A DNA stretch of 34,125 nucleotides. Source: an uncultured Treponema sp. GTDB taxonomy: Bacteria; Spirochaetota; Spirochaetia; Treponematales; Treponemataceae. The stretch is from positions 1 to 34,125 of the forward strand of contig CAMKDH010000005.1 in NCBI GenBank assembly GCA_946411215.1, read 5' to 3'. Numbering within the stretch: position 1 is the first letter of the stretch; each line of letters opens with the position of its first letter. This document shows positions 4,509 through 27,646 of this stretch, piece after piece. The position numbers and the translations under genes were made by a program. The notes below the pieces were generated by a model. It was not told where the DNA came from. It worked only from the letters and a program-made list of their open reading frames with translations, and made no database searches.

Positions 4509-5024
4509 TTATTTTCTTCCACCAATAGGATTAAAATGAAAACGAACTAAGGCCTCATTAACTTCATCAATCGAAAACGGACCATATATAAAACAAAATT
4601 CATAAATTAAATCTTTCTTAAAACCGGTAAGCGAATGTCCGGCACTAGAAAGTAAATCAACAGCTTCTTCATAATCAAGGGAAAGCGCAAGTGCTAAAGC
4701 AACGATATTATCTTTTGTAGGCCTTTTAGTTTTCCCACTGATAATTTTCGAAAAGCAGTCAGCAGTCATCCCGGCAGTATTGTAAACCTGAGGATGAGTC
4801 ATTCCCTTTTTGTTAATATAATAATTCAAACGAGTTACAAAATCTTCGTTGACCGACCCCAGAAGCTTTTTTTCAAGCTCTTTAAATTTAGGATGGTCAG
4901 TAGGACTAAATGTTTTTATTGGAGTCAAACTGCGGCGTTTTGAAATCCTGTGAACAATTTTGTTCAACGATCTTTGAGCAGCAGAATTAATGTACTCTTC
5001 AACGTTAGATAAATTCATTGGCAT
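4509..5024 (-). CDS. XRE-type helix-turn-helix regulator
   Basis: A 171-residue DNA-binding protein. ATG 5024 (MPMNLSNVEEY) is chosen because GGAAGGG lies 5 nt upstream; the longer open frame to 5102 has no such site. The middle carries an XRE/Cro-type fold: FVTRLNYYINKKGMTHPQVY, then TADCFSKIISGKTKRPTK as recognition region, then a LALALSLDYEEAVDLLSSAG helix. The C-terminal segment (FKKDLIYEFCFIYG.. VNEALVRFHF) is conserved in a common gut-bacterial family of such regulators. It is the third gene of the operon behind the shared element at 5488. It is one candidate to be the regulator that reads that element, although XRE operators are normally palindromic and this element is not. Confidence 0.75.
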   Translation of the reverse strand: MPMNLSNVEEYINSAAQRSLNKIVHRISKRRSLTPIKTFSPTDHPKFKELEKKLLGSVNEDFVTRLNYYINKKGMTHPQVYNTAGMTADCFSKIISGKTKRPTKDNIVALALALSLDYEEAVDLLSSAGHSLTGFKKDLIYEFCFIYGPFSIDEVNEALVRFHFNPIGGRK

Positions 5025-5047
5025 AAACACCCTTCCTTTTTTTGAGT

Positions 5048-5248
5048 TTAAAAATAAACCCACGGATTGCGAACAACCCGGTAACTTCCACATTCCGGAC
5101 ATTTTGCTCTTTTAACCTTTTTAAACAAATCGTCAAAAAGCCTGAGTCCGCTTGGGTTTGGCCCTATAAAATGCTTGTGACATTTTAAACAAATTAAAGG
5201 CACTGGGTCGCCGTACTTTGGTGGGATCATGTTGTGAAATTTTTGCAT
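5048..5248 (-). CDS. Small zinc-ribbon protein
   Basis: A 66-residue protein with two zinc knuckles, CLKC (about 20-23) and CPEC (about 50-53), the geometry of a zinc ribbon. Basic residues lie between the knuckles (FKKVKRAK). Such proteins usually bind nucleic acid or a protein partner. ATG 5248 has an AAGGAG site upstream. It is the second gene in the operon started by the shared promoter-like element at 5488. No family assigned. Confidence 0.7.
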   Translation of the reverse strand: MQKFHNMIPPKYGDPVPLICLKCHKHFIGPNPSGLRLFDDLFKKVKRAKCPECGSYRVVRNPWVYF

Positions 5249-5487: not shown

Positions 5488-5522
5488 CTAATAATAGAGA
5501 AGGAAGGTATTGAAAAATTGAC
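5488..5522 (-). promoter_or_regulatory. Shared bipartite promoter-like element, copy A
   Basis: Read on the minus strand: GTCAATTTTT (5522-5513), 13 nt, CTCTATTATTAG (5499-5488). It lies 42 nt before ATG 5446. Seven further copies with the identical 13-nt gap occur in this window. TTGTCA to TATTAT is 22 nt, too long for sigma-70. Confidence 0.75.
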
Positions 5523-5557
5523 AAAATTTAAGAAATTTTTTGCAGAAAAATTAAATT

Positions 5558-10146: not shown

Positions 10147-10380
10147 TTATTTTTCTAATTTATCAAAAGCTTTGTTAAACTTGCTGAACTTTCTGGCAGT
10201 TTCAATAGCAAGCTTTACAGCATCAGAAAACTCTTTATGAATGATTGCTTTTCCATTGCAGTTTCTCACTTTGTAAGAACCATCTTTGCAATGTTCAATC
10301 ATAGGAACATGTTCTACACTAGCAACGCTGTACCATTTTCCATCAATCAATTCCTTGTGCCATTTTATAGTGCTCTTCAT
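10147..10380 (-). CDS. Hypothetical 77-residue protein, intact paralogue
   Basis: Unknown small protein, last in the operon that begins at 11701. It starts MKSTIKWHKELIDGKWYSVA and has a beta-rich first half and a basic helical end (ETARKFSKFNKAFDKLEK). GGAG lies 7 nt before ATG 10380. A second copy, damaged by a deletion, lies at 21707-21875 on the other side of the CRISPR genes. The intact copy carries GCAGTTTC twice (10196-10203 and 10258-10265 on the plus strand), the pair that explains the deletion in the other copy. Confidence 0.65.
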   Translation of the reverse strand: MKSTIKWHKELIDGKWYSVASVEHVPMIEHCKDGSYKVRNCNGKAIIHKEFSDAVKLAIETARKFSKFNKAFDKLEK

Positions 10381-11730: not shown

Positions 11731-11765
11731 CTTATAATAGAGCGTTACAATTACTAAAAATTGAC
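11731..11765 (-). promoter_or_regulatory. Shared bipartite promoter-like element, copy B
   Basis: Minus strand: GTCAATTTTT (11765-11756), 13 nt, CTCTATTATAAG (11742-11731), 30 nt before ATG 11701. The first block doubles as the last codons of the csx20-like gene (Val-Asn-Phe-stop), so the element is fixed inside coding sequence. Confidence 0.75.
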
Positions 11766-12170
11766 ACTTTTCTGAAAAATTTTTGAAAAATATTCATATT
11801 TTCTAAAACAAACATGCTCAAAAATATATTGTCTAGAAACAATTTCTCCATCACGCTGTTCAGCCGCTACCCTTTTTGTAACTGCATATAAAGGGATAAT
11901 CTTGTTCTTAAGAGCAAAATCAACAATCATAAAAGTTGAACCAAACTCTCCCTGCACAATAAGAACATCATCTTTGTCTGCAGCAGCGAGCCATCCAATT
12001 ACTGAATTTATTACGCTTAAATCGAGCTGTTCGGTTACAGGAATTTGAGACCAGGTTTTTGAGAGTTCTTCTGAAGGATATGTAATATTTGTAATTTTAT
12101 ATTTTGCTTCAAGTTCCGAAATCTGATTCTGAGTAAGTTCGTGGTTTAATAAACAATATGCTTTAGACAT
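11754..12170 (-). CDS. csx20: Csx20-like CRISPR accessory protein, probable ring nuclease
   Basis: A 138-residue protein that matches the pattern I recall for Csx20: LLNHELTQNQISELEAKY at the start, LSKTWSQIP near 40, then VLIVQGEFGSTFMIVDFAL and IIPLYAVTKR, and a final FEHVCFRKYEYF. Csx20 is found with type III systems and, as I recall, has been described as a ring nuclease that degrades the cyclic oligoadenylate made by Cas10; I cannot verify that here. If so it would turn the response off. It lies downstream of the cas operon on the same strand but has its own promoter-like element (copy C), unlike the cas genes, so its expression is set separately. Confidence 0.65.
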   Translation of the reverse strand: MSKAYCLLNHELTQNQISELEAKYKITNITYPSEELSKTWSQIPVTEQLDLSVINSVIGWLAAADKDDVLIVQGEFGSTFMIVDFALKNKIIPLYAVTKRVAAEQRDGEIVSRQYIFEHVCFRKYEYFSKIFQKSVNF

Positions 12171-12197: not shown

Positions 12198-12232
12198 CTA
12201 TTAATAGAGATTTGTTGTTTGGGAAAATTGAC
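12198..12232 (-). promoter_or_regulatory. Shared bipartite promoter-like element, copy C
   Basis: Minus strand: GTCAATTTTC (12232-12223), 13 nt, CTCTATTAATAG (12209-12198), 28 nt before ATG 12170 of the csx20-like gene. It sits in the short gap after the last cas-operon gene. Confidence 0.75.
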
Positions 12233-12244
12233 AAAAAAGAAAAA

Positions 12245-13543
12245 TTATTTTAATAAATCAAACAAATTTTCAACACCGCGTTTTCCACTTTCATAAATAG
12301 CTGGAATATTTGCAGCATGAGGATAATTTCCATCTCTATTCTTTCCACCACCATGAGCTATTTGATTTCTAAAGGCCTCAAGATTAGTTAAAGGATTTCC
12401 GATATCCTTCCACTCTGTACTATTCCATTTTTTTGTCTTTTTATCTTTTGGAAACTTATACTGGTTAAGTTTTTCCCGACCTGTGGTTTTCCACCATTCA
12501 TAATCACCATATTGATCTGGAGATCCAAATTGTTCAACAATAATAGCTTCAACTGTAACCTGCAAAGTTATTACTGCCTGTATATTCAACTTATGCTCAT
12601 TAAGAAATAATGAATAATTATATAAAGTACCTGATACTGTTGGCGCTTCCAATTTTACAATTTTCTCAAGCGATTCTTTAACAGGTAAAAGCCATTCTGG
12701 TGCATTTTGCGGATAAGCTGTAAGTGAATTTTTAATTTGTTTTATGACCTCTGTAATTTGTAAGGCAAAATTTGTTTGTACAATTTCAGAAAGACTTTTT
12801 ACGGCTTTACTACCTTTTGCCCAATATTTAGAAAGAAGTTCCGAAAGTTTAAAACCATCAAGCTTCTCATTAAAAATACTTAAAGCATTTGTTAGTTCAG
12901 AGTATTTCCAATATTCACTTAAATTTCGAACATATCCTTTTGATTTATTGTTTAAATCCAATTCACCATAAACAATTTCAACTAATTGATTTGTTTGCTG
13001 CGATAAAGAATACTGCAATGATTGATAAAGAAGAACCGGCATTGAACGAAATCCATGAGTTATATCAAAAAGAATATTATTTCCTTTTTTACAAAGTTTA
13101 GTAATGCCTGAATAACATTCAAATAATTGAGCCACAGTATTATTATCAACGCTATGAGTATGTTCCCGAATAGAAACTTCTACAGAAAAACGTTCTGTAA
13201 GATATTTTTCCAACCTGTCAAGATTTTCTCTGGTAACTCCCGAAGGTTGCTCTCCTTTATTCTTTGATTCACATTGGTCAAATAAATCGCTCCATAATTC
13301 TAGAGTTTCATCACGTTCATCTTTATCCTTGTCTACTAAACAATCCCATGAAGATGTATCTGTTCCAAGAATAATTATTTGATTTATGTCCTTATATTTA
13401 CATTCTAAAAGAGCCTGCATGAAAAGACGTGTTTGTTTATGTTGTCCATTTTCTAAAAAGTAATCAGTTTCAACATATCCTTCATAATTCTCTGTTGTTT
13501 TGTACATTCCTGTACCTATCATTGAGATTAATGTGTAGGACAT
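12245..13543 (-). CDS. Csx1/Csx2-type (TM1812 family) CARF-HEPN ribonuclease
   Basis: A 432-residue effector. The N-terminal Rossmann-like CARF domain begins SYTLISMIGTGMYK and contains IIILGTDTSSWD and the ligand-loop region ILFDITHGFRSMPVLLYQS. The C-terminal HEPN domain carries RNQIAH (Arg392 to His397), the RX4H active site. Members of this family bind cyclic oligoadenylate in the CARF domain and then cut RNA nonspecifically in the HEPN domain. ATG 13543 follows GGAGG by 7 nt and overlaps the csm5 stop as TAATG. It is the last gene of the cas operon and takes the place usually held by csm6 in III-A loci. Confidence 0.85.
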   Translation of the reverse strand: MSYTLISMIGTGMYKTTENYEGYVETDYFLENGQHKQTRLFMQALLECKYKDINQIIILGTDTSSWDCLVDKDKDERDETLELWSDLFDQCESKNKGEQPSGVTRENLDRLEKYLTERFSVEVSIREHTHSVDNNTVAQLFECYSGITKLCKKGNNILFDITHGFRSMPVLLYQSLQYSLSQQTNQLVEIVYGELDLNNKSKGYVRNLSEYWKYSELTNALSIFNEKLDGFKLSELLSKYWAKGSKAVKSLSEIVQTNFALQITEVIKQIKNSLTAYPQNAPEWLLPVKESLEKIVKLEAPTVSGTLYNYSLFLNEHKLNIQAVITLQVTVEAIIVEQFGSPDQYGDYEWWKTTGREKLNQYKFPKDKKTKKWNSTEWKDIGNPLTNLEAFRNQIAHGGGKNRDGNYPHAANIPAIYESGKRGVENLFDLLK

Positions 13544-14673
13544 TATATTTCCTCCAAAGTACATTTACACCAACCAAATGGAAGGAACTGGCCATCATAA
13601 TTGAACAAAGATCTTGTTATTCCTGTTCCTTCTCCAGAAGGTAATCGACGAAAATTTTCTTCAAATGTTATAAACTCAACTTGGCTCCATTTACCAACTC
13701 TTATTATAAATTGATTTTTAGCAGCTGTAATTGTTTTTAATTCCGATTTTAATTCTGCTATTAAATCACAACCGATGCTAGCCTCTTGATAAAACGAAGC
13801 ATATTCTTTTTCGAATTCACGAAGATAAAAATAATTACAACTGTCTATTATGTTTTTAGCAGTAATAGACCTAGATAAAGCTCTTTTGTTAACTAAATCT
13901 GAATTAATTCGCAATTGAGAAACTGTTTTATTGGGAAGACCCATGAAATATCCTTTTATAGCTTCTGCTTGAATTGGAATTGAACTTTCAAGGAGTTCTC
14001 CTGTTTGCGCATTTCGAAAAACGTTTTTTACTAATCCTACAATCTGTGAATTATCAGAAGCAAAACTACAGTCACTTATTTCCACTCCTCTAAAAGGATC
14101 GTTCTTTGCATCTTTATAATCACCAAGTAATTTAGATTGCAGTTCTTTTTCATATCGTTGTTGATTATTTGCTCTATTTAAATTTTCATAGAGCCTATCA
14201 TAAGTTTCATCACTTAGTTCATGCATCTGTTGATTTAATACAGCAGTACGTATTGCACCTTTAAGAGAACTTCCTGGAATAACAGGTGTATTTGATTCCT
14301 TTGGTCTATATATTTGCTCTACAAAGGCCGCTGTTTCATACGGATCTTTTGATCGATTTTTTCCATAAACATCATAAAAATCTTTAGTTACTTCACAAGA
14401 ATATTCAGCATCATCTTTAGGACTACAATTACTATGAAAAAAATCCATTATTCCTTTCATATTGTTTGAGGAACTAATTGTCTCAAAAGCTTTTGATTTT
14501 TCTTTATCAGTTGCAATACGCCTTAATAACTTGTCAGATGAAAATTTTAAATACTTTTGTCTTTTTTGTTCTGAGTCGACAACTATGTAATCAAGCATTG
14601 TCAACTGATTACCTGTTCCAATATGAACACAAGTTATAGGCTCTATAGTAAGTTTATATATTTGCTTAGACAT
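13543..14673 (-). CDS. csm5: Csm5, type III-A RAMP subunit
   Basis: About 376 residues. Csm5 caps the 3' end of the crRNA in the Csm complex and helps crRNA maturation. The RAMP features are the opening strand YKLTIEPITCVHIGTG, the loop VIPGSSLKGAIRTAVL and the glycine-rich end GEGTGITRSLFNYDGQ with LPFGWCKC. ATG 14673 is preferred because GGAG lies 5 nt upstream; a GTG at 14679 is in frame. It overlaps the csm4 stop region, as expected for a coupled operon. Confidence 0.88.
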   Translation of the reverse strand: MSKQIYKLTIEPITCVHIGTGNQLTMLDYIVVDSEQKRQKYLKFSSDKLLRRIATDKEKSKAFETISSSNNMKGIMDFFHSNCSPKDDAEYSCEVTKDFYDVYGKNRSKDPYETAAFVEQIYRPKESNTPVIPGSSLKGAIRTAVLNQQMHELSDETYDRLYENLNRANNQQRYEKELQSKLLGDYKDAKNDPFRGVEISDCSFASDNSQIVGLVKNVFRNAQTGELLESSIPIQAEAIKGYFMGLPNKTVSQLRINSDLVNKRALSRSITAKNIIDSCNYFYLREFEKEYASFYQEASIGCDLIAELKSELKTITAAKNQFIIRVGKWSQVEFITFEENFRRLPSGEGTGITRSLFNYDGQFLPFGWCKCTLEEI

Positions 14674-14675
14674 AA

Positions 14676-15566
14676 TCACTCCATACTATCAGATATAGGA
14701 ATAACGGGCGCAAAACCTGACTGGCATATACGAGAGTCACTGTGTATATCTGTGAGCATTTTTCCTATAAATGAAATTGGTTTGTCACTTGAAAATATTG
14801 CCCCTTCGTTAAACAATACGACAGTTTTTTTCCAAGGCTGCAAGAAGCTTGCAAAAGCTCCTCCGATTTTTCCTGTTCTAACAAAAATATCAGCCTTTAA
14901 ATCAGTAATCTCTGAATTTTCTGGTAAAACAAAAGGACCTAAAGCCATATAAGAATTTGACTTACACTTTGTTTTTATAGATTCTGGCTCGCCTACTACG
15001 GTAATTTTACCTTTACCAACAGAAGCATCTGCACCAAAACCGTTTTCAAAAGCCCAGTCTAATAATTGTTTAACTCTGTTTTTTTCATAAGAAGAAACAA
15101 TGTATATGTCAAATAATTTCACAGTTGCCCATTGTTCAGAAACAGCAAAAAGACCTCCGTCATTAACTGTATTTGAAAAACGGTTCATTGTATTATGTGT
15201 TACTTCAACTGATTCAAAAACTTTAGTTATCTTCTCATTTTCTTTCTCGTTTTGTTGCTCAAGATAAAGGGAAGAATTAATATAAATACTTTTTTTGTTT
15301 TTCTTAATCTCTGCATATTTTGCAGGTGTCATTTCTTTCTGACGTTTTTGAACAGGTGGCATTGGTTTACAAAGCATATTGTGTGGAAAAGCCGAAGAAA
15401 CGACAAAAGGCGATTCTGATGTTTTACAATCCGAAAGGAATTTATTAACAGCTTCCTCGCCTTCATGATTTGCTATTCCCCATACAACATGTCCCCAAAT
15501 AGTGTCACCTTTTAAAGGAGTAATAAGAGAAGACTCTAATTCTAATGTAACTTTATAAAGTTCCAT
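14676..15566 (-). CDS. csm4: Csm4, type III-A RAMP subunit
   Basis: A 296-residue RAMP protein that binds the 5' tag of the crRNA and contacts Cas10. Seen here are the start LYKVTLELESSLITPLKGDTIWGH, the insertion region FAVSEQWATVKLFDIYIV and the glycine-rich loop GFGADASVGKGKI (about 185-197), the hallmark of this subunit. It follows csm3 by 9 nt and leads directly to csm5. Confidence 0.88.
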   Translation of the reverse strand: MELYKVTLELESSLITPLKGDTIWGHVVWGIANHEGEEAVNKFLSDCKTSESPFVVSSAFPHNMLCKPMPPVQKRQKEMTPAKYAEIKKNKKSIYINSSLYLEQQNEKENEKITKVFESVEVTHNTMNRFSNTVNDGGLFAVSEQWATVKLFDIYIVSSYEKNRVKQLLDWAFENGFGADASVGKGKITVVGEPESIKTKCKSNSYMALGPFVLPENSEITDLKADIFVRTGKIGGAFASFLQPWKKTVVLFNEGAIFSSDKPISFIGKMLTDIHSDSRICQSGFAPVIPISDSME

Positions 15567-15575
15567 AAATGATTC

Positions 15576-16244
15576 CTAAAGTGTTATGGCATTATCATTT
15601 TCATCTTTTAATTCGACAAATTCAATTTGGCCGTTACCTCGAGTACCACCACCACCAAGATAATCATTTTGTAAAAGACGTAAACCTTCAAGAACTACAG
15701 AATCAAAGAACTCTTTATCTTTTTTTCCACCATCACCATCATCTATGATTCTATATGCTATTTCAAAATCAAATTCAACACCTGGAACGACACGTTCAAT
15801 TGGTCTAGGGTTTGCAGCCGCTGTTATTCGGTTTAAACTGTTTTCACTTTTTTCTTCAACAATTGCTTTTCCTTGTTTGAATTTTTCAGACCATTCTGTA
15901 GTCAAATTTGCATCTCGAACTATGATTCGAGTCGGTCCTTTTGATTTGTCTGCATCCCTAGAATTATTTGCGCTTCCAAAAATACGACAAATAGGACAAT
16001 CCGCTTTACCACAAGAACAAGGCTTGCCTTCACTAGCAGAAACTTTATCTAATTTCCATTCTAGTAATGAACGCATTTTTCCTTTTATAGATGAACCAGG
16101 AATATATGGCTCGCGTGTAAGAGGATTTCGAATTATTGGATTATCCATTCCACCAATTTCAACTTTGTCATTACCAGCGCCTATATGAAGACCTGTTTTT
16201 ACAATTATTTTTCCTTTTATAATTTTTAATCCAATCTGTTTCAT
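15576..16244 (-). CDS. csm3: Csm3, backbone RAMP with target-RNA cleavage Asp
   Basis: A 222-residue backbone subunit, present in several copies per Csm complex, that cuts the bound target RNA at 6-nt intervals. The catalytic Asp is kept: Asp34 in EIGGMDNPIIRNP. Other marks are PGSSIKGKMRSLLEW, a zinc-type cluster CSCGKADCPICRIFG and the glycine-rich end YLGGGGTRGNGQIEF. AAGGAGG precedes ATG 16244. With Asp34 present, sequence-specific RNA cleavage should be active. Confidence 0.93.
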   Translation of the reverse strand: MKQIGLKIIKGKIIVKTGLHIGAGNDKVEIGGMDNPIIRNPLTREPYIPGSSIKGKMRSLLEWKLDKVSASEGKPCSCGKADCPICRIFGSANNSRDADKSKGPTRIIVRDANLTTEWSEKFKQGKAIVEEKSENSLNRITAAANPRPIERVVPGVEFDFEIAYRIIDDGDGGKKDKEFFDSVVLEGLRLLQNDYLGGGGTRGNGQIEFVELKDENDNAITL

Positions 16245-16260
16245 TTTTTATCCTCCTTTT

Positions 16261-16794
16261 TTATTTTGCGCTCTTTGGGGCTTTTTCATAATAGAAACCA
16301 TATACAGCTTCAAACAAAGAAACGAAAACTTCATAATCTTTATTTGTTTTGACCAAATCAATACATGAACTTATGAATTTCTCAAGATTCTTATAAAGCC
16401 CTGCTTCGTCTGCTTTATCCTTCGCTGCACGAGCAACAGTATATGCAACCTTTGATTTAATCATTCGTATATATGGATACTGAACTTCCCATTGATCTGG
16501 AGATACTGATAAAATTTGTTCAAAGCGTTTAACTTCATCGAAAATACGACGTAATTGTGTTGATGTAATTCCTATATCAGAGCCTCTACGATTCTGTCCA
16601 ATAAACGAATTTGCAATTTTACTTGCAGTTTCATCAAATAATTCTTGCTTAATTGTTGATCCATTATCTTTATAAAATGAATCAACAACTATGGCTTGAG
16701 GTATAAAAGATTTATCCTCAAATTGTTTATTACCATAAGAATTCCTATTACCAAAGTCGCCCCTGGATCCATTATTGTTTTGTTGATAACCCAT
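16261..16794 (-). CDS. csm2: Csm2 small subunit with Asn/Gly-rich N-terminal extension
   Basis: A 177-residue helical small subunit that lines the crRNA-target duplex. The core is recognisable in TSTQLRRIFDEVKRFEQI and YIRMIKSKVAYTVARA. The first 25 residues (GYQQNNNGSRGDFGNRNS and onwards) are low-complexity Asn, Gly and Arg, longer than in usual Csm2 proteins of about 120-150 residues. Such a tail may bind RNA; this is inference. GGAGG precedes ATG 16794. Confidence 0.85.
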   Translation of the reverse strand: MGYQQNNNGSRGDFGNRNSYGNKQFEDKSFIPQAIVVDSFYKDNGSTIKQELFDETASKIANSFIGQNRRGSDIGITSTQLRRIFDEVKRFEQILSVSPDQWEVQYPYIRMIKSKVAYTVARAAKDKADEAGLYKNLEKFISSCIDLVKTNKDYEVFVSLFEAVYGFYYEKAPKSAK

Positions 16795-16807
16795 CTATCT
16801 TCCTCCA

Positions 16808-19075
16808 TTACGATTGTCTTTGTGTATATAATGCATAACATACAGCTATGCGTGATTTGATTATTTCTTCTTGAGAAGTTCCAAAATGAAGGAACCAGTC
16901 AAGCACTTCTTTTTTCTTAATATTTCTTACTGCACAGTATTTAAAATTACTTTTCCAGATATGATCATGTAAATTTGCGCTTCCTGTTTTAAGTAATTCT
17001 GACACATCACCTGTTTTTACTCGTTCGGCTCGTTTCGAAAAATCAATTAATTTATAAACGCTTCCAGATGAAATCGTTTTATTATTTAAATATTGTTCTA
17101 GACTCATGCCATCCTTCAAGCAATTAGAATAATCTTCCCATGACACTGTAGTTTCAAAAACTGTTATTGCATTTTTAACAGTATTACCATTGTTATCTTT
17201 TCTACTCTTAGAAGTTTCTAGAGCTTCTTCTGCATCTCTAGCAATATTCTTAACAGGTACAACACAAGAAGAAAGTGTTATTCCCCCAGACAATGTTATA
17301 GATGGATTATGATTTGTAAATTTCTGCAATTCTGTTTCAAAATCAGAAGCAAATTGCACAACAGCATCCCAGGCACCAAGAATACATAAATCATCTCCAC
17401 CAGAGAAAACTGTATAAATAACTTCGTCGTATTTAACTATGGTTCCATCTTTGTTATAACTATGTTTGTGAACAAAATCTGCATAATATGCTGAGAAGAA
17501 GAAATGTAAAAGATGACTTAAATCTGCATAACGAGCAAAAGACATTCTGCTTCCAAGAGAAGACGAGAAAACAAGTCCTAAATTATCTATATCAGATTTG
17601 AACATTGCAAGCTTCTTGTTTCCTTTAGATTTTTCAGAAATATCTTCAAAGGTTAATATTTCACCGTCCAAAGAAGGTGCAGTATATGGTATATACATAA
17701 CCGGTTTTCCAGGAACAAATTCATTAACAGTATATCCATTCTTTAAATCATCTTTTGGAGAAACTTTTACCATTTGTGAAAAGGATTTTAAGCTTGAAGA
17801 ATCAAAGATAATTGTTCCTGCCCGAACTAAATGGCCTCCAATATCTGTTAATTTTTTACAATCGGAACATTCACAAGGATTACCTTTATCATCTACACCA
17901 CTTGCCGGAAAAACTCCACATTTAGGGCACTCGCCATACATTTGTAATTGATTATAAAAATCACTTAGAACTGCCCCATTTTTCTGTAGGGCTTTTTGCA
18001 TTTTTTTCTGTTTACAGGTATCTGTATTTTCACCTATTCGATTCATCAAGTCTTGTACATTTTCTTTTAATAAATCATTCGCACAAGCCTCTACTCCGTC
18101 TGAAACAATTACAGCAAGCTTTCCTGCAAACTCTCGTAAAAAATAAGATTCAATTTCAAGCTGGATTTGTGGTAGGAAACTTATATTTTTCTCGGTGTTT
18201 GGAATAAGAACCATAAAGTTTCCACCTGCAGACATTATTACATTAGCAAGAGAAACATCAAATTGCTGAACAATATATTGAGAAAGAATTTCACTTAAGG
18301 CTGCAATCTGAAAGCTTTTTGCACGAAGAAGCTTTGCATTGTGTTTTGTAGTTTTTAAATCAAAAATATATTTTTGGATACCAGAAACATCGCCCTTAAT
18401 AAATCTAAATTTTTTAAGGGAATAGTCTTGCAAAGCTTCAATTGTCTGAGTATCTGTTTCTTTATGATAGTCAAATAATACAGCCGCAATTGCAGCAGAT
18501 AGTTTTGAATGCTGGTACAAACTTTCAGAATCTTCTTCAGATAATGATGGAATACACCACCAATAACGTTCTAGCAGTGAATTAAGAGCTTTTATAAAAA
18601 GATCTGTAGATTCATTAGGGAGCTTTGATAAACCTTCCTCAAAATCTTTCCATAATTTTTGATAATCTGCTTTAGCCGTTTTGTAATTTTCTTTTGAGAC
18701 AGGAAGCATACCCGCTGATTCTAATGGCTGAAATTTACAATATGATATTTCAGCTTTTTTTCGTTCGGGAATCTGCAAGGTTGAAACAAGATGCTGCAAC
18801 AATGTTGGATTTTCATAAAACTTTGAATTATTATTTTTACAAATATCATTATTTCCACTGCTCAGACAATCAGCATAGGCTATAAGATTTTCCTCATAAG
18901 AAAAAGGGTTCTGCCAGTTATTAATTAATTGTTTTACATTTTCTTTATTAATAGTTTTTGGCAAAACAGATTCAAGTATAGTCAAGACTGAACTATCTTT
19001 GGCATAAAATAAAATATTATGTAACCAGGCTGCTATTATTATTTCATCTTTTTCTATATTCAACATTTCTTGCAT
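16808..19075 (-). CDS. cas10: Cas10/Csm1: intact cyclase palm, altered HD site
   Basis: A 755-residue large subunit. The cyclase palm has an intact GGDD (residues 559-562, VFSGGDDLCILG), which in this family makes cyclic oligoadenylate when target RNA is bound. The zinc region is CPKCGVFPASG to CECSDCKK. The N-terminal HD-nuclease region reads AAWLHNILFYAKD: His19 is followed by Asn20 instead of Asp, and the later conserved D-H of Csm1 proteins is QH (SLYQHSKLSAAIAA). The ssDNA nuclease is therefore probably lost or weak, and the system should act mainly through RNA cleavage and signalling. Start ATG 19075; an internal ATG at 19066 is also possible. Confidence 0.93.
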   Translation of the reverse strand: MQEMLNIEKDEIIIAAWLHNILFYAKDSSVLTILESVLPKTINKENVKQLINNWQNPFSYEENLIAYADCLSSGNNDICKNNNSKFYENPTLLQHLVSTLQIPERKKAEISYCKFQPLESAGMLPVSKENYKTAKADYQKLWKDFEEGLSKLPNESTDLFIKALNSLLERYWWCIPSLSEEDSESLYQHSKLSAAIAAVLFDYHKETDTQTIEALQDYSLKKFRFIKGDVSGIQKYIFDLKTTKHNAKLLRAKSFQIAALSEILSQYIVQQFDVSLANVIMSAGGNFMVLIPNTEKNISFLPQIQLEIESYFLREFAGKLAVIVSDGVEACANDLLKENVQDLMNRIGENTDTCKQKKMQKALQKNGAVLSDFYNQLQMYGECPKCGVFPASGVDDKGNPCECSDCKKLTDIGGHLVRAGTIIFDSSSLKSFSQMVKVSPKDDLKNGYTVNEFVPGKPVMYIPYTAPSLDGEILTFEDISEKSKGNKKLAMFKSDIDNLGLVFSSSLGSRMSFARYADLSHLLHFFFSAYYADFVHKHSYNKDGTIVKYDEVIYTVFSGGDDLCILGAWDAVVQFASDFETELQKFTNHNPSITLSGGITLSSCVVPVKNIARDAEEALETSKSRKDNNGNTVKNAITVFETTVSWEDYSNCLKDGMSLEQYLNNKTISSGSVYKLIDFSKRAERVKTGDVSELLKTGSANLHDHIWKSNFKYCAVRNIKKKEVLDWFLHFGTSQEEIIKSRIAVCYALYTQRQS

Positions 19076-19084
19076 ATCTCTATT

Positions 19085-19999
19085 CTACTCCCACTTTGTC
19101 CAAAAGTCCAATTGACCGAGTCCGAAATTTGTATTTTTCCCAGCGTTGAACAGTCTGCTAAATTCTATGAGATTCTGCTCATGTGCAGAGAAACTTCCCT
19201 GAAGTTTTATAGTGCCTAAGGCTCCACCTATATTCATTGCTTCTTTTTGGCGGGCTGAATAATGTCGATTGTCCTGCCAGCTAAGATTTTTTTCAATAAT
19301 TTTATTCTTGTCTGACGGATTAAAACTAAAATCTTCTGCAGCATCTCCATACAAACTACAAAGGGTTTTTGCTCGACGATACAAACAAGCAAAAAAATCC
19401 TGTGAAGAAAAATCTGTGCCATACTTGCCACCGTACTTAAAACGCACAGGTGTTTTTAGTTCTATCAAAACTTCGCCTTTTTTTTCTGGAAGTGCTAAAT
19501 CAATTTGCCAGATCTTTGATGTTACAGATGTATCAAGATGTTCGGTATCAAGCAGGATATTGTTTCCATCAACTTCAACACGAACAACTTCAAAAGGTGT
19601 ACGGCTTTTAAATATTCCATCCTTTCCAGCCCGCACAAAAGCAGCATATATATATGGGAGATAATCAATCGCTTTTCCTAAAAGTGTGATAGTAAAATCA
19701 TATTCGCTGATTTCAGTACCAGAGCTGAAAGTTCCACTGCTAAAAACAAATGGATGCGAAGCCCTGTCTCGTCCTGGGGTTACATTATTATCTGTTGGAA
19801 GAATTGTTTCAAACAAAAAAGCATAAGCACAAGTACGGTTGTACATACATTCCGGACATTTATTCTGGTGCGCAATGCAACTCATTGAATGCAGATTTTT
19901 ACCTAGCATGGAACGAAGAATAAAAAGGGGGGGAGTGTCAGCAAGAACTGGATGAGAAAAACATAAAGTGAACTTTATTGGAAGGTATGAGAGAAGCAT
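19085..19999 (-). CDS. cas6: Cas6 pre-crRNA endoribonuclease
   Basis: A 304-residue RAMP protein of the Cas6 family that cuts the repeat RNA to make crRNAs with a short 5' tag. Typical marks are the cysteine region CPECMYNRTCAYAFLFE (about 48-64), the long beta-rich middle with PFEVVRVEV, and the glycine-rich end NFGLGQLDFW. It is more divergent than the canonical small Cas6 enzymes. Its ATG overlaps the stop of the preceding gene as TAATG, so the two are translationally coupled, and it lies just before cas10. Confidence 0.85.
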   Translation of the reverse strand: MLLSYLPIKFTLCFSHPVLADTPPLFILRSMLGKNLHSMSCIAHQNKCPECMYNRTCAYAFLFETILPTDNNVTPGRDRASHPFVFSSGTFSSGTEISEYDFTITLLGKAIDYLPYIYAAFVRAGKDGIFKSRTPFEVVRVEVDGNNILLDTEHLDTSVTSKIWQIDLALPEKKGEVLIELKTPVRFKYGGKYGTDFSSQDFFACLYRRAKTLCSLYGDAAEDFSFNPSDKNKIIEKNLSWQDNRHYSARQKEAMNIGGALGTIKLQGSFSAHEQNLIEFSRLFNAGKNTNFGLGQLDFWTKWE

Positions 20000-20976
20000 T
20001 ACAAACCGGCCTTATCCAATTTTTGTCTGTATTCTTCATTTATTAAGTTTTCAAATCTATCGTAAGTATTTCCTATACTTGATTCGTTGATACCACACAT
20101 TAAACCTATTGATTTTCTGTCTGTATTTGGTTTCCAATTATTGTCTTTTGTAAAGTTTTCAAGTTCAGTTTTGTCAATTAAGTCATAGGGAGCTAAGAAT
20201 TGTTCAATATCCAGCCCAGATAAATTTTCGTTTAGTAAAGCTGCCAAAAGTATATTTGTAAACCAACGGGAATAAAAAACATCATTTTTTTGATTTTTAC
20301 CTTTTTTACGAAGATATACTTTATTAGCAGCTTTTATATAAAGACTCAGCTTTTTAAGGAGTATTTCTTGATTTTCCTCAAATCCAAACAAATCTTTTTC
20401 ACTCAAAAAATCAAAGACCTCTGAATTTGAGTCATCACTCTCAACCGTCTGGTTTCCCTCTATTACATTTTTCTTATCTAACCAATCTAAAGCTTTTTTA
20501 ATTTGTTCATCACTCTTACCCCAGGAATGTCCATATTCAAAAAGTTTGGCTTCAACATAAGAATTTCGTTTATAAATATTTGTGGTCAAACCTTTTAGTT
20601 CCGCCCACTTTGCTAAATCGCGCCCCAGTTTTATAACATCTTTGCTTACTTCTGAAATTCCTTTTTTGCTTTCATCGGTTTTTGTATTAAATAATTTCTG
20701 TTTTAATACATATCCAAACAAGCTTATCCAAGAATCTGGTTTTCCCTCCAGACATTCTATAATAGCATCAGAAATAGAATCTTCAAAAATCTCTTCATCA
20801 ATATCAGAATATTTTAATACTTTCAAAAGCTCTGCATATTCCCATAATTCTTTTGAAAGTTTGTTACGACAAATTCTCCAGGCTGAATTATCATTGTTCC
20901 TTTCTTCATCTGAAAAATTAAGGAATTCCTTTCCAAGAGTTTCTATGCTGTCTTTTAAGTGATTAAAATCTGCCAT
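19999..20976 (-). CDS. Possible divergent sigma-70-like / HTH protein within the cas operon
   Basis: Not a known Cas protein. The 325-residue chain reads like a stretched sigma factor: SISDAIIECLEGKPDSWISL with LFGYVLKQKLFN (about 66-97) resembles the region 2 core helix; GISEVSKDVIKLGRDLAKWA and KSDEQIKKALDWLDKKNVIEG resemble region 3; the end, DRKSIGLMCGINESSIGNTY, is a helix-turn-helix like region 4. A long lysine-rich insertion (LRKKGKNQKND) separates the parts. It is the second gene of the operon, between a CARF-only protein and cas6, coupled to the latter. The alternative is a plain HTH regulator or an unknown structural protein. The sigma call is by pattern only and should be tested by profile or structure comparison. 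Confidence 0.45.
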   Translation of the reverse strand: MADFNHLKDSIETLGKEFLNFSDEERNNDNSAWRICRNKLSKELWEYAELLKVLKYSDIDEEIFEDSISDAIIECLEGKPDSWISLFGYVLKQKLFNTKTDESKKGISEVSKDVIKLGRDLAKWAELKGLTTNIYKRNSYVEAKLFEYGHSWGKSDEQIKKALDWLDKKNVIEGNQTVESDDSNSEVFDFLSEKDLFGFEENQEILLKKLSLYIKAANKVYLRKKGKNQKNDVFYSRWFTNILLAALLNENLSGLDIEQFLAPYDLIDKTELENFTKDNNWKPNTDRKSIGLMCGINESSIGNTYDRFENLINEEYRQKLDKAGL

Positions 20977-20985
20977 AATTAAACT

Positions 20986-21627
20986 CTATAGAGCAAAAAA
21001 CTTATCTAAGCGCGCAAGAGCTGTTTTTCCATCAGGAGCTTCCATTACAGAAGTAAGAGAATTCAAATAATACAATGATGTTACATCATAGAGTTCACAA
21101 GTTCCAGGAACAGGATGTCCCCCATCGAATTCTGCTTTATCATAAAGAATATTTTTAATATCTGCATTAAAGAATTTTTCTGCAAAACCTAAAACATAAA
21201 ATAGAACAGGAATAAGTGTTTTGGAACCATAGGTCATATCCAAAATAATCTGTCTGTCTTCTTCTAAAACTCCTATTAATTCTCTAAAGCGTTTTTCAAT
21301 AGTTTTTCCAGAATCATCATAATCTGTTATAATAGGTTTATAATCAATTTTGGCACCAATGTTATTGTTCAGTTCATCTAATTCTTGTTGTTGAATTTCG
21401 GCATTTCTTACAGCACTTGATTTTGACGAGTTTACAAGTATTTGTATAATTTTTACATCATCACCTTTATTTAACGTTTTTGCAAGAAAACCATTTATTG
21501 CAAAATGCACTTTATTGTTATATTCGTATTTTTTATTTTCATTGAATGTATAAAAATATCCCTGAGGATCCCATCCTTTTCCTTCAATAGATTGAATTGG
21601 AATTGTAACGAATACTGTTTTTTTCAT
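20986..21627 (-). CDS. Stand-alone CARF-domain protein
   Basis: A 213-residue protein with the fold pattern of the TM1812-type CARF domain: KKTVFVTIPIQSIEGKGW at the start, VKIIQILVNSS as a central strand, and the ligand-loop signature IILDMTYGSKTLIPVLFYVLG, which lines up with ILFDITHGFRSMPVLLYQS in the CARF-HEPN nuclease of the same operon. The closing ELYDVTSLYYLNSL also matches that family. There is no HEPN, nuclease or HTH domain after it, so it should sense cyclic oligoadenylate and pass the signal to a partner. It is the first gene behind the sigma-70 promoter and sits next to the sigma-like gene. A ring-nuclease role is the main alternative. Confidence 0.75.
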   Translation of the reverse strand: MKKTVFVTIPIQSIEGKGWDPQGYFYTFNENKKYEYNNKVHFAINGFLAKTLNKGDDVKIIQILVNSSKSSAVRNAEIQQQELDELNNNIGAKIDYKPIITDYDDSGKTIEKRFRELIGVLEEDRQIILDMTYGSKTLIPVLFYVLGFAEKFFNADIKNILYDKAEFDGGHPVPGTCELYDVTSLYYLNSLTSVMEAPDGKTALARLDKFFAL

Positions 21628-21706: not shown

Positions 21707-21875
21707 TTATTGTCCTTTATCAAAAGCTTTGTTGAATTTGCTGAACTTTTTAGCAGTTTCTTACCTTATAAGAACCATCCTTGCAATATTCAATCATTGG
21801 AATATGTTCAACATTTGCAACGCTGTACCATTTTCCATCAATCAATTCTTTATGCCATTTAACAGTACTTTTCAT
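21707..21875 (-). pseudogene. Deletion-damaged copy of the 77-residue protein gene
   Basis: ATG 21875 opens a copy of the gene at 10147-10380: MKSTVKWHKELIDGKWYSVA continues to SYKVRNC and then meets a stop at 21750. The C-terminal part (ETAKKFSKFNKAFDKG) is still present downstream in another frame, to a stop at 21707. Compared with the intact copy, 62 bp are missing, exactly the distance between two GCAGTTTC repeats there, one of which is left here. It follows the DUF1232 gene with AAGGA before the ATG. The truncated product might still be made. Confidence 0.8.
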
Positions 21876-21888
21876 TCTTTTTTCCTTC

Positions 21889-22293
21889 TTATGCCACTTT
21901 CTGTCCCATTTCTTCCTTGTACTTCTGAACATCGAATTGTGTAAAGCGTAAACTCATTCTTATAATAAATGCGTCGTCAATGTAACCAATGACAGGTATG
22001 TAATCCGGGATAATATCCTGCGGGTTCAGGACATAAAGGAGTGTACATACAATGGTGGCAATTGTTCCAAAAGGAATCTTTTTGTATTTTCCGGTTACAA
22101 TGTCACGAAGCATCCTAAAGTAGAGTTTTACATCTTCCACAAATTTAATGAGTTCAGGGTTCTTAAGAATCTTGTTGATTTTGCTTTCGTTGTCCAGGAC
22201 CTTCTTTAAGTCATCGTCGGTGTAGTTTTTGAATGAATCAAATTTATCTTTGAGCTGTTCTTTAATTTCTTCTTTGTTGAATTTGTTTTCCAT
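21889..22293 (-). CDS. DUF1232 (YkvA-like) membrane protein
   Basis: A 134-residue protein with the DUF1232 core: the hydrophobic helix IPFGTIATIVCTLLYVLNP, then the signature PQDIIPDYIPVIGYIDDAF. The family is membrane associated and of unknown function. The N-terminal half is charged and helical (FNKEEIKEQLKDKFDSFK). AGGAG precedes ATG 22293, and element D lies 32 nt upstream. The damaged small-protein gene follows 14 nt downstream. Confidence 0.85.
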   Translation of the reverse strand: MENKFNKEEIKEQLKDKFDSFKNYTDDDLKKVLDNESKINKILKNPELIKFVEDVKLYFRMLRDIVTGKYKKIPFGTIATIVCTLLYVLNPQDIIPDYIPVIGYIDDAFIIRMSLRFTQFDVQKYKEEMGQKVA

Positions 22294-22324: not shown

Positions 22325-22359
22325 CTTTTAATAGAGACATGGAAATTGGAAAAATTGAC
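22325..22359 (-). promoter_or_regulatory. Shared bipartite promoter-like element, copy D
   Basis: Minus strand: GTCAATTTTT (22359-22350), 13 nt, CTCTATTAAAAG (22336-22325), 32 nt before ATG 22293. AAAAGTGTAAA continues into the leader and is shared with copy E. Confidence 0.75.
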
Positions 22360-22394
22360 AGATTTTGAAAAGTTTTTTTGATTTTTTTCTAAAT

Positions 22395-22422: not shown

Positions 22423-22432
22423 TGGTTTTGTG

Positions 22433-22686
22433 GTTGTAATCCCTTGAAGCAGGTCAATGTTTTAGACTCCGAAGTTTATCAAGAAAGAGACGGTGGGAAA
22501 AAGGTCTTAATCCCTTAAAGCAGGTCAATGTTTTAGACAAGATCACATACCACGAGTCATGTGAACTTGAATCATGGTCTTAATCCCTTAAAGCAGGTCA
22601 ATGTTTTAGACTGACAAGCTATGCTAATGGTGGAATGACACCAACTGGCGCGTCTTAATCCCTTAAAGCAGGTCAATGTTTTAGAC
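22433..22686 (-). CRISPR. CRISPR array, four 35-nt repeats and three spacers
   Basis: Repeats at 22433-22467, 22504-22538, 22577-22611 and 22652-22686; spacers of 36, 38 and 40 nt. On the plus strand each repeat begins GTCTTAATCCCTT and ends GTTTTAGAC; the ends are inverted repeats. On the minus strand it ends AAGGGATTAAGAC, similar to the common AAGGGATTGAAAC end, so the 5' tag would be ATTAAGAC. The first copy (22433) has three changes, as expected for the repeat farthest from the leader. Leader and promoter therefore lie above 22687, and the terminator at 22395 agrees. No cas1 or cas2 is in the window. Cas6 of the adjacent operon is the likely processing enzyme. Confidence 0.97.
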
Positions 22687-23052: not shown

Positions 23053-23087
23053 CTTTTAATAGATACTGGAAGTTCTGAAAAATTGGT
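23053..23087 (-). promoter_or_regulatory. Shared bipartite promoter-like element, variant copy E
   Basis: Minus strand: ACCAATTTTT (23087-23078), 13 nt, ATCTATTAAAAG (23064-23053), 31 nt before ATG 23022. It differs from consensus at the first two bases of the upstream block and the first base of the downstream block, and may be weaker. Confidence 0.6.
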
Positions 23088-23149
23088 AAATTTTCAGTTA
23101 TTTTTTTTCGCATCGCCTCTTTTACTTTGAAATAGTTTTCTTAATAAAT

Positions 23150-26832: not shown

Positions 26833-26867
26833 TGTTAATTAGAGAAGTTTGATGTGCAAAAATTGAC
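26833..26867 (-). promoter_or_regulatory. Shared bipartite promoter-like element, copy F
   Basis: Minus strand: GTCAATTTTT (26867-26858), 13 nt, CTCTAATTAACA (26844-26833), 29 nt before ATG 26804 of nrdG. It begins only 4 nt after the kinase-like gene. Confidence 0.7.
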
Positions 26868-26870
26868 AAA

Positions 26871-27528: not shown

Positions 27529-27563
27529 CTTTTATTAGAGACCTGTCAGTTTAGAAAATTGAC
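27529..27563 (-). promoter_or_regulatory. Shared bipartite promoter-like element, copy G
   Basis: Minus strand: GTCAATTTTC (27563-27554), 13 nt, CTCTAATAAAAG (27540-27529), 32 nt before ATG 27497. It stands back to back with copy H across 48 nt of A+T-rich DNA. Confidence 0.75.
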
Positions 27564-27611
27564 ATAAAAAATAAAAAAATCATAAATTGCGAAAAATTTT
27601 TTTTATATTGT

Positions 27612-27646
27612 GTCAATTTTTCAATACAACACGTCTCTATTATAAA
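27612..27646 (+). promoter_or_regulatory. Shared bipartite promoter-like element, copy H
   Basis: Plus strand: GTCAATTTTT (27612-27621), 13 nt, CTCTATTATAAA (27635-27646), 44 nt before ATG 27690. The only plus-strand copy; its presence on both strands excludes simple orientation bias. Confidence 0.75.

Follow-up and report, generated by a model that had tools for sequence, protein, structure and literature searches.

The window, by which we mean the whole stretch of DNA analysed here (34,125 nucleotides), is the entire contig C5 of a Treponema genome bin (2.52 Mb, 75% complete) and carries a type III-A (Csm) CRISPR-Cas locus, in which all five Csm1-Csm5 NCBIfam models match above cut-off and are accompanied by an array and Cas6. 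The cas operon lies on the minus strand in the order CARF-only gene, U325, cas6, cas10, csm2, csm3, csm4, csm5 and Csx1-type CARF-HEPN gene. Its first gene (20986..21627) encodes a protein with a CARF domain only (PDLC01820), followed by U325 (19999..20976), a 325-aa protein of the CARF-partner family with probable sigma-70 likeness, placed there by hhalign to the partner alignment A4, and by cas6 (19085..19999; PF10040 above cut-off and PDLC01477, with TIGR01877 below cut-off). The cas10/csm1 gene (16808..19075; 755 aa, 521.7 bits against TIGR02578, cut-off 170), in which the HD site is lost and GGDD is intact, leads into csm2 (16261..16794; TIGR01870 and PF03750 above cut-off), csm3 (15576..16244; TIGR02582, 239.6 bits), csm4 (14676..15566; TIGR01903) and csm5 (13543..14679; TIGR01899). 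Csm3 contains a GGMDNP stretch, which we take to hold the catalytic Asp. The operon ends with the Csx1-type effector (12245..13564), recognized by TIGR02221 (98.2 bits), PDLC01834 (E 8.8e-154) and the RX4-6H motif R399-NQIA-H, after which csx20 of the ring nuclease family (11754..12170, minus strand; NF040559, 126.6 bits against a cut-off of 70) follows with a promoter-like element of its own.

Upstream of the cas operon lie a DUF1232 gene (21889..22293, minus strand; PF06803) and the CRISPR array (22432..22686), which has four 36-nt repeats and three spacers, is assigned to the minus strand from a degenerate repeat at its low-coordinate end, and uses a repeat absent elsewhere in the genome bin. 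When 20-mers of the three spacers were compared with viral contigs, the one match covered only about 21 of 39 nt and was not accepted as a protospacer; a search of viral contigs with AAA778 gave no match. No cas1 was found anywhere in the 75% complete bin. Two small ORFs (10147-10380 and 21750-21932) sit in 87%-identical DNA repeats, D4 and D9, which flank the csx20-cas block as if it had been inserted, or the repeats duplicated around it. At the edges of the contig (1-1093 and 33321-34125) stand a MATE transporter and an mntR-like gene, and since mntR has other neighbour genes in the near relative G019, the middle of the contig may be an island.

The N-terminus of Cas10, MQEMLNIEKDEIIIAAWLHNILFYAKDSS, reads His19-Asn20 at the HD motif, just as the preliminary description of this DNA had stated. 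We aligned it with 30 hand-chosen relatives (28 HD-intact; G130, at locus L013, and L028 HD-lost), leaving aside full-length HD-less distant Csm1s such as L043-L046, L050 and L057. In this 31-row alignment the six ligand columns read H, D, H, H, H, D in 28/28 HD-intact rows and H19, N20, gap, W54, Q55, D69 in the window, so that two of the six positions of the H-D...H...HH...D motif are kept (H19 and D69) and four are lost: the loop histidine is deleted and HH has become WQ, while G22 and K23 have given way to L and F. This damage is not a matter of chance, because all 28 aligned HD-intact rows keep all six positions. Moreover, about 32 residues are missing between HD and D69 in comparison with HD-intact relatives, the span from H19 to D69 being 51 residues in the window, where 12 of 13 HD-intact relatives have 82-87 (83 in most) and the thirteenth has 73. 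Ahead of residue 95 the only histidine is H19, so the N-terminal segment cannot build a normal HD metal centre. The degenerate HD nuclease of the preliminary description is thus confirmed by the comparison with Csm1 relatives (four of six positions gone, H19 the lone histidine ahead of residue 95), and the lesion, an internal deletion in addition to ligand loss, is larger than was noted.

With its HD active site removed by substitution and internal deletion, the window's Csm1 should no longer cut ssDNA and, judged from its sequence (two of six positions, loop deleted), does not belong among the HD-active Csm1s. A weak nuclease, kept by another residue or by a rearranged site, would find some room in the persistence of H19 and D69 and in an HD fold region that is still modelled, but D20, the loop histidine and HH are gone and no further histidine precedes residue 95, which makes such an activity highly improbable in our view. 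One further sign of degeneration had been proposed, namely that the later conserved DH of Csm1 proteins reads QH. The letters are indeed there (LYQHS, Q188-H189), but because HD-intact treponemal relatives (L011, L012 and L014) read SLYQHAKTT, QH is a feature of the lineage and is silent on the HD nuclease. A solved Csm1, PDB 9zs2_A, which is the best solved-chain profile match by E-value, also has LHN for LHD, in a stretch that scores only 0.1 bit.

The cyclase side of the protein presents the opposite picture. GGDD at 559-562 stands as first described, DIDN at 495-498 is likewise intact, and GGDD in palm 2 is invariant in 31/31 alignment rows and missing from none of the five treponemal Csm1s that have lost HD (window, G130, L028, G224 and G507), with DIDN, DVDN or DLDN in all rows displayed. 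The AlphaFold2 model of the window Cas10 is confident (pLDDT 90.2, pTM 0.89), and the nearest solved folds to it are all Csm1 (9ash_A: VIA Z 35.0, rmsd 2.7, 682 aligned). Cas10 has two catalytic outputs, and the predicted cyclase is the one that remains.

How often this has happened could be followed among relatives. HDxGK occurs in 35 of 53 ORFs of at least 450 aa in our locus census and is absent in 14, the other 4 being not assessable; a Csm1 profile search found a match in 32 of 392 Spirochaetota genomes and added the HD-lost G224 and G507. The span equivalent to H19..D69 is short in every HD-lost protein (window 51, G130 50, G224 64, G507 51, L028 54). On a Cas10 tree from which the HD domain was left out, the HD state changed at least three times. 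The window groups with the HD-intact L020 (UBA6988) with support 94/96, or 81/94 when the truncated L131 is included; G224 and G507 stand together (100/100); and G130, L028 and the HD-intact L025 form one group (100/100), in which the node uniting the G130 and L028 losses has weak support (78/11). Forcing all five HD-lost rows into one clade cost 106.7 log-likelihood units, and a single ancestral loss was rejected by the AU test (p-AU 2.0e-5). The sequences thus place at least three losses of HD among related treponemal Csm1s, with similar shortening each time, and such repeated changes on an HD-free tree indicate that the cyclase persists as the HD site disappears. HD-lost proteins beside HD-intact sisters amount to a natural experiment on the purpose of the Cas10 DNase.

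Two relatives have broken cas10 genes: in L022 (a T. brennaborense MAG) an in-frame stop at about 10064 comes directly after HDVGKFA, which may be a MAG error, and in L034 cas10 is split over two frames. Such cases, along with the short array of three spacers and a bin without cas1, might be read as general decay of the window's locus, with HD loss as one step of it. Every cas and accessory frame is open, however, GGDD is intact, csm3 is 72-77% identical to close treponemal relatives, and the same shortening recurs with the cyclase retained; we therefore consider decay very unlikely.

The preliminary description had taken the presence of at least two CARF proteins and a probable ring nuclease as consistent with reliance on signalling. 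These genes are present (Csx1 CARF-HEPN, with PDLC01834, TIGR02221 and RNQIAH at 399; the CARF-only protein; and Csx20, above the cut-off of NF040559), but HD-intact relatives have equal numbers of CARF effectors, and Csx20 as well, and the genes are therefore no evidence of a switch to signalling, a reading that we rejected as non-diagnostic. What differs, as a lead only, is the kind of effector: Csx1 CARF-HEPN occurs in 4/5 HD-lost against 1/7 HD-intact loci (p 0.07), and most HD-intact loci have a CARF-PDDEXK effector (profile PDLC01880), presumably Can2/Card1-like. These counts, like those for cas1 below, come from hand-filled tables that leave out L022 (stop), L131 (no N-terminus) and cut contigs, and for cas1 also L024 (contig end).

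Loss of adaptation offers another route to the same lesion, in which, once cas1-cas2 are gone, the ssDNase decays from disuse and signalling is not the cause. In a staphylococcal III-A system, acquiring and retaining spacers depends on the ssDNase of Cas10, and 0.94% of new spacers matched phage in cas10HD against 97.96% in the wild type (PMC11708336). Adjacent cas1 is missing in 4/5 HD-lost loci (window, G130, L028 and G224) and present in 5/6 HD-intact ones, and there is none anywhere in the complete genome of G130 or in the window's bin. Nevertheless, G507 has lost HD and still keeps cas1-cas2-cas2 beside cas10, a cas1 lies some 28 kb from the G224 locus, and the link between cas1 and HD loss (Fisher p 0.08, among related and hence non-independent rows) is a lead only. 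We regard this route as possible though rather unlikely; the HD-lost and HD-intact sisters would themselves test the laboratory finding that the Cas10 DNase supports spacer acquisition.

Our preferred reading is that the window holds a complete type III-A system whose Cas10 is ssDNase-dead while RNA targeting and cyclic oligoadenylate signalling are kept, and we consider this very probable. The loss of the ssDNase is established at the level of sequence; what remains to the system is predicted from knowledge of the family. The suggestion that ssDNA cleavage has probably been dropped is supported by the deletion, the ligand loss, the lone early histidine and the independent losses in relatives. 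The crRNA-guided Csm complex would bind target RNA, Csm3 would cut it, and the intact GGDD site would make cyclic oligoadenylate, which is expected to switch on the Csx1 CARF-HEPN RNase, and probably also the CARF-only protein with its sigma-like partner, before being cleared by Csx20. For another member of the Csx20 family cA4 ring-nuclease activity has been shown (PMC12409355). Because the bin is 75% complete, it may lack further effectors or a separate nuclease that the organism has.

The pair at the head of the operon deserves attention of its own. Relatives of the CARF-only protein occur in 22 of 392 Spirochaetota genomes, one of which is that of the window, counted in a genome draw of the same size and settings as the 32/392 for Csm1-like Cas10; the two lists overlap in G000 and G345 only, and in at least two of the other twenty genomes (G376 and G496) there is a type III Cas10 of another kind, unreported by the Csm1 profile. 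A full-length relative with 47% identity lies on T. saccharophilum pTS2. In 19/19 inspected loci (L187-L205) a same-strand ORF follows immediately after the CARF-only gene, one of them cut by a contig end. The two-gene module of CARF and sigma-like genes (L187-L205, L185) has a wide distribution in Treponema, where it often adjoins RavA/ViaA-like genes and often lacks a Csm1-like Cas10; at L211 the pair adjoins RavA- and ViaA-like genes, and the neighbours at L212 and L213 are similar by eye. In the HD-lost Treponema Nc350_bin133 (L028 13067-13792), a 242-aa ORF consists of a CARF start fused to the end of a sigma-like partner and reads as a collapsed copy of this module in the same kind of locus.

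U325 itself has no sequence relatives in the 392 phylum genomes or in plasmids, phages and viral contigs, and no match to Pfam, NCBIfam or PHROGs, nor a direct one to a sigma-70 model; its single-sequence fold is poor (pLDDT 42.7), and a weak match to L053 was not supported. A plain hmmsearch with the family profile did not report it at E 10, and profile-profile comparison alone finds it: against A4, an alignment of thirteen CARF partners, hhalign gave 97.2% (E 3.2e-11, 291 columns), with a score of 64.1 for U325, where the best of 80 decoys reached 21.5 and the best of 15 shuffles 17.2, while the synteny partner at L189 scored 24.5, little above the decoys' 21.5. In the family, Sigma70_r2 (L201) and Sigma70_r3 (L206) pass the Pfam cut-offs, and RpoD_Cterm matches at E 5.4e-6, far under that model's cut-off. 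A joint RpoD/RpoS/FliA profile reached 84.3% against the enlarged partner family, six control proteins reaching at most 1.6%, and 41.3% against A4 alone and 0.2% against U325 alone; FliA and RpoD singly gave 1.6 and 1.9% against the family, not standing out from controls. From these comparisons we think it likely that the CARF-partner family, that of U325, is sigma-like.

A candidate for what such a protein might read is present in the same contig. The promoter-like element TGTCAATTTT-N15-TCTATTA occurs without mismatch five times in the 2.52-Mb bin, each time on the 34-kb contig, against none for the reversed control and none in 117 other genomes of the genus. On the minus strand these lie before the DUF1232 gene (22329..22360), csx20 (12202..12233), a 119-aa gene (11735..11766) and a 61-aa ORF (5492..5523), and on the plus strand before the 142-aa/SNF2/AAA genes (27611..27642). 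With up to two mismatches and fixed spacing there are nine in the genome, eight of them on the contig, the additional minus-strand sites lying before tmk (27533..27564, one mismatch), nrdG (26837..26868, two mismatches) and a 57-aa ORF upstream of the array (23057..23088, two mismatches); 8/8 contig elements stand 31-47 nt before a same-strand ATG. With up to three mismatches the genome has 26 sites against 28 for the reversed control, and only sites with at most two mismatches were therefore counted. Element matches in viral contigs numbered 21, all single, and were taken as chance.

At L206 (G376), positions 13933-17418 belong to a T. saccharophilum-like island of another type III subtype, which has CARF-sigma-cas6 in common with the window. 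The locus contains an array, CARF, the sigma-like gene, cas6, a Cas10 with a Cmr2-type match, RAMPs, Csx1 and nrdD, its Csx1 and nrdD being 61.5% and 65% identical to those of the window, and accessory parts seem to move between type III subtypes. The partner of the other CARF copy in G376 is identical to the one carried by T. saccharophilum pTS2. L206 shows three element sites with three mismatches against 0.15 expected (0/200 shuffles reach three), one of them before nrdG as in the window. With a relaxed pattern, two of three matches in the whole G376 genome fall inside the L206 island, and only two of four in the window's own genome fall on its contig.

U325 may be the protein that reads the TGTCAATTTT-N15-TCTATTA element. 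The element could instead be the site of a different island regulator, such as the XRE protein at 4509-5102, or be part of a mobile element's own control: an HTH gene is present on the island, the elements also stand before small ORFs, nrdG and tmk, which resemble genes of a mobile element, and before the cas operon and the TPR-AAA gene there are TATAAT-like boxes rather than the TGTCAATTTT element. On the other hand, U325 is the only sigma-like gene found in the window, and similar elements occur in the T. saccharophilum-like island, which also has CARF-sigma-cas6. Assignment to another regulator is a serious possibility, if somewhat short of probable. Read with U325, the elements permit a tentative picture of a CRISPR-controlled sigma regulon, in which the DNase-dead Csm complex would make cyclic oligoadenylate, the CARF protein would bind it and free or activate U325, and U325 would direct RNA polymerase to the promoters of private island genes, namely csx20 (as feedback), nrdDG, tmk, SNF2/AAA and small ORFs. 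The same pair may serve other Treponema defence islands (RavA/ViaA-like) that are without Csm1-type Cas10. If this were so, a candidate promoter map of the target genes would already be in hand.

Set against known systems, an HD-less Csm1 as such is ordinary: in the census of Hoikkala 2024 (PMC11229360), HD is recognisable in 65% of III-A loci and 39% of all 1113 loci, which leaves about a third of III-A without it. The HD-less type III-A Csm systems described there likewise have csm1-5, a kept cyclase, no HD motif and a cA4-type effector; here, by contrast, repeated internal deletions beside HD-intact sisters account for the loss. VmeCmr of Vibrio metoecus (PMC8682760) shares the HD-less Cas10 and the signalling output, predicted in our case, but is a III-B system with NucC, whereas the window is III-A with Csx1 CARF-HEPN and Csx20. 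A CARF with a transcription-type protein, and CARF beside MoxR/vWA genes, have been described; the latter arrangement resembles L211-L213, by description only. In the open-licence literature, where the Calp system appears, no CARF-sigma pair with type III CRISPR was identified, and among the window genes scanned (a subset of ORFs) there was no SAVED-Lon protease CalpL and no CalpT, which sets the locus apart from Calp proper. If our reading of U325 is right, the window shares with Calp (CalpL-CalpT-CalpS; PMC11229360) a route from type III messenger to sigma factor, but with a small CARF protein directly before the sigma-like gene, and type III immunity would then reprogramme transcription without a protease cascade.
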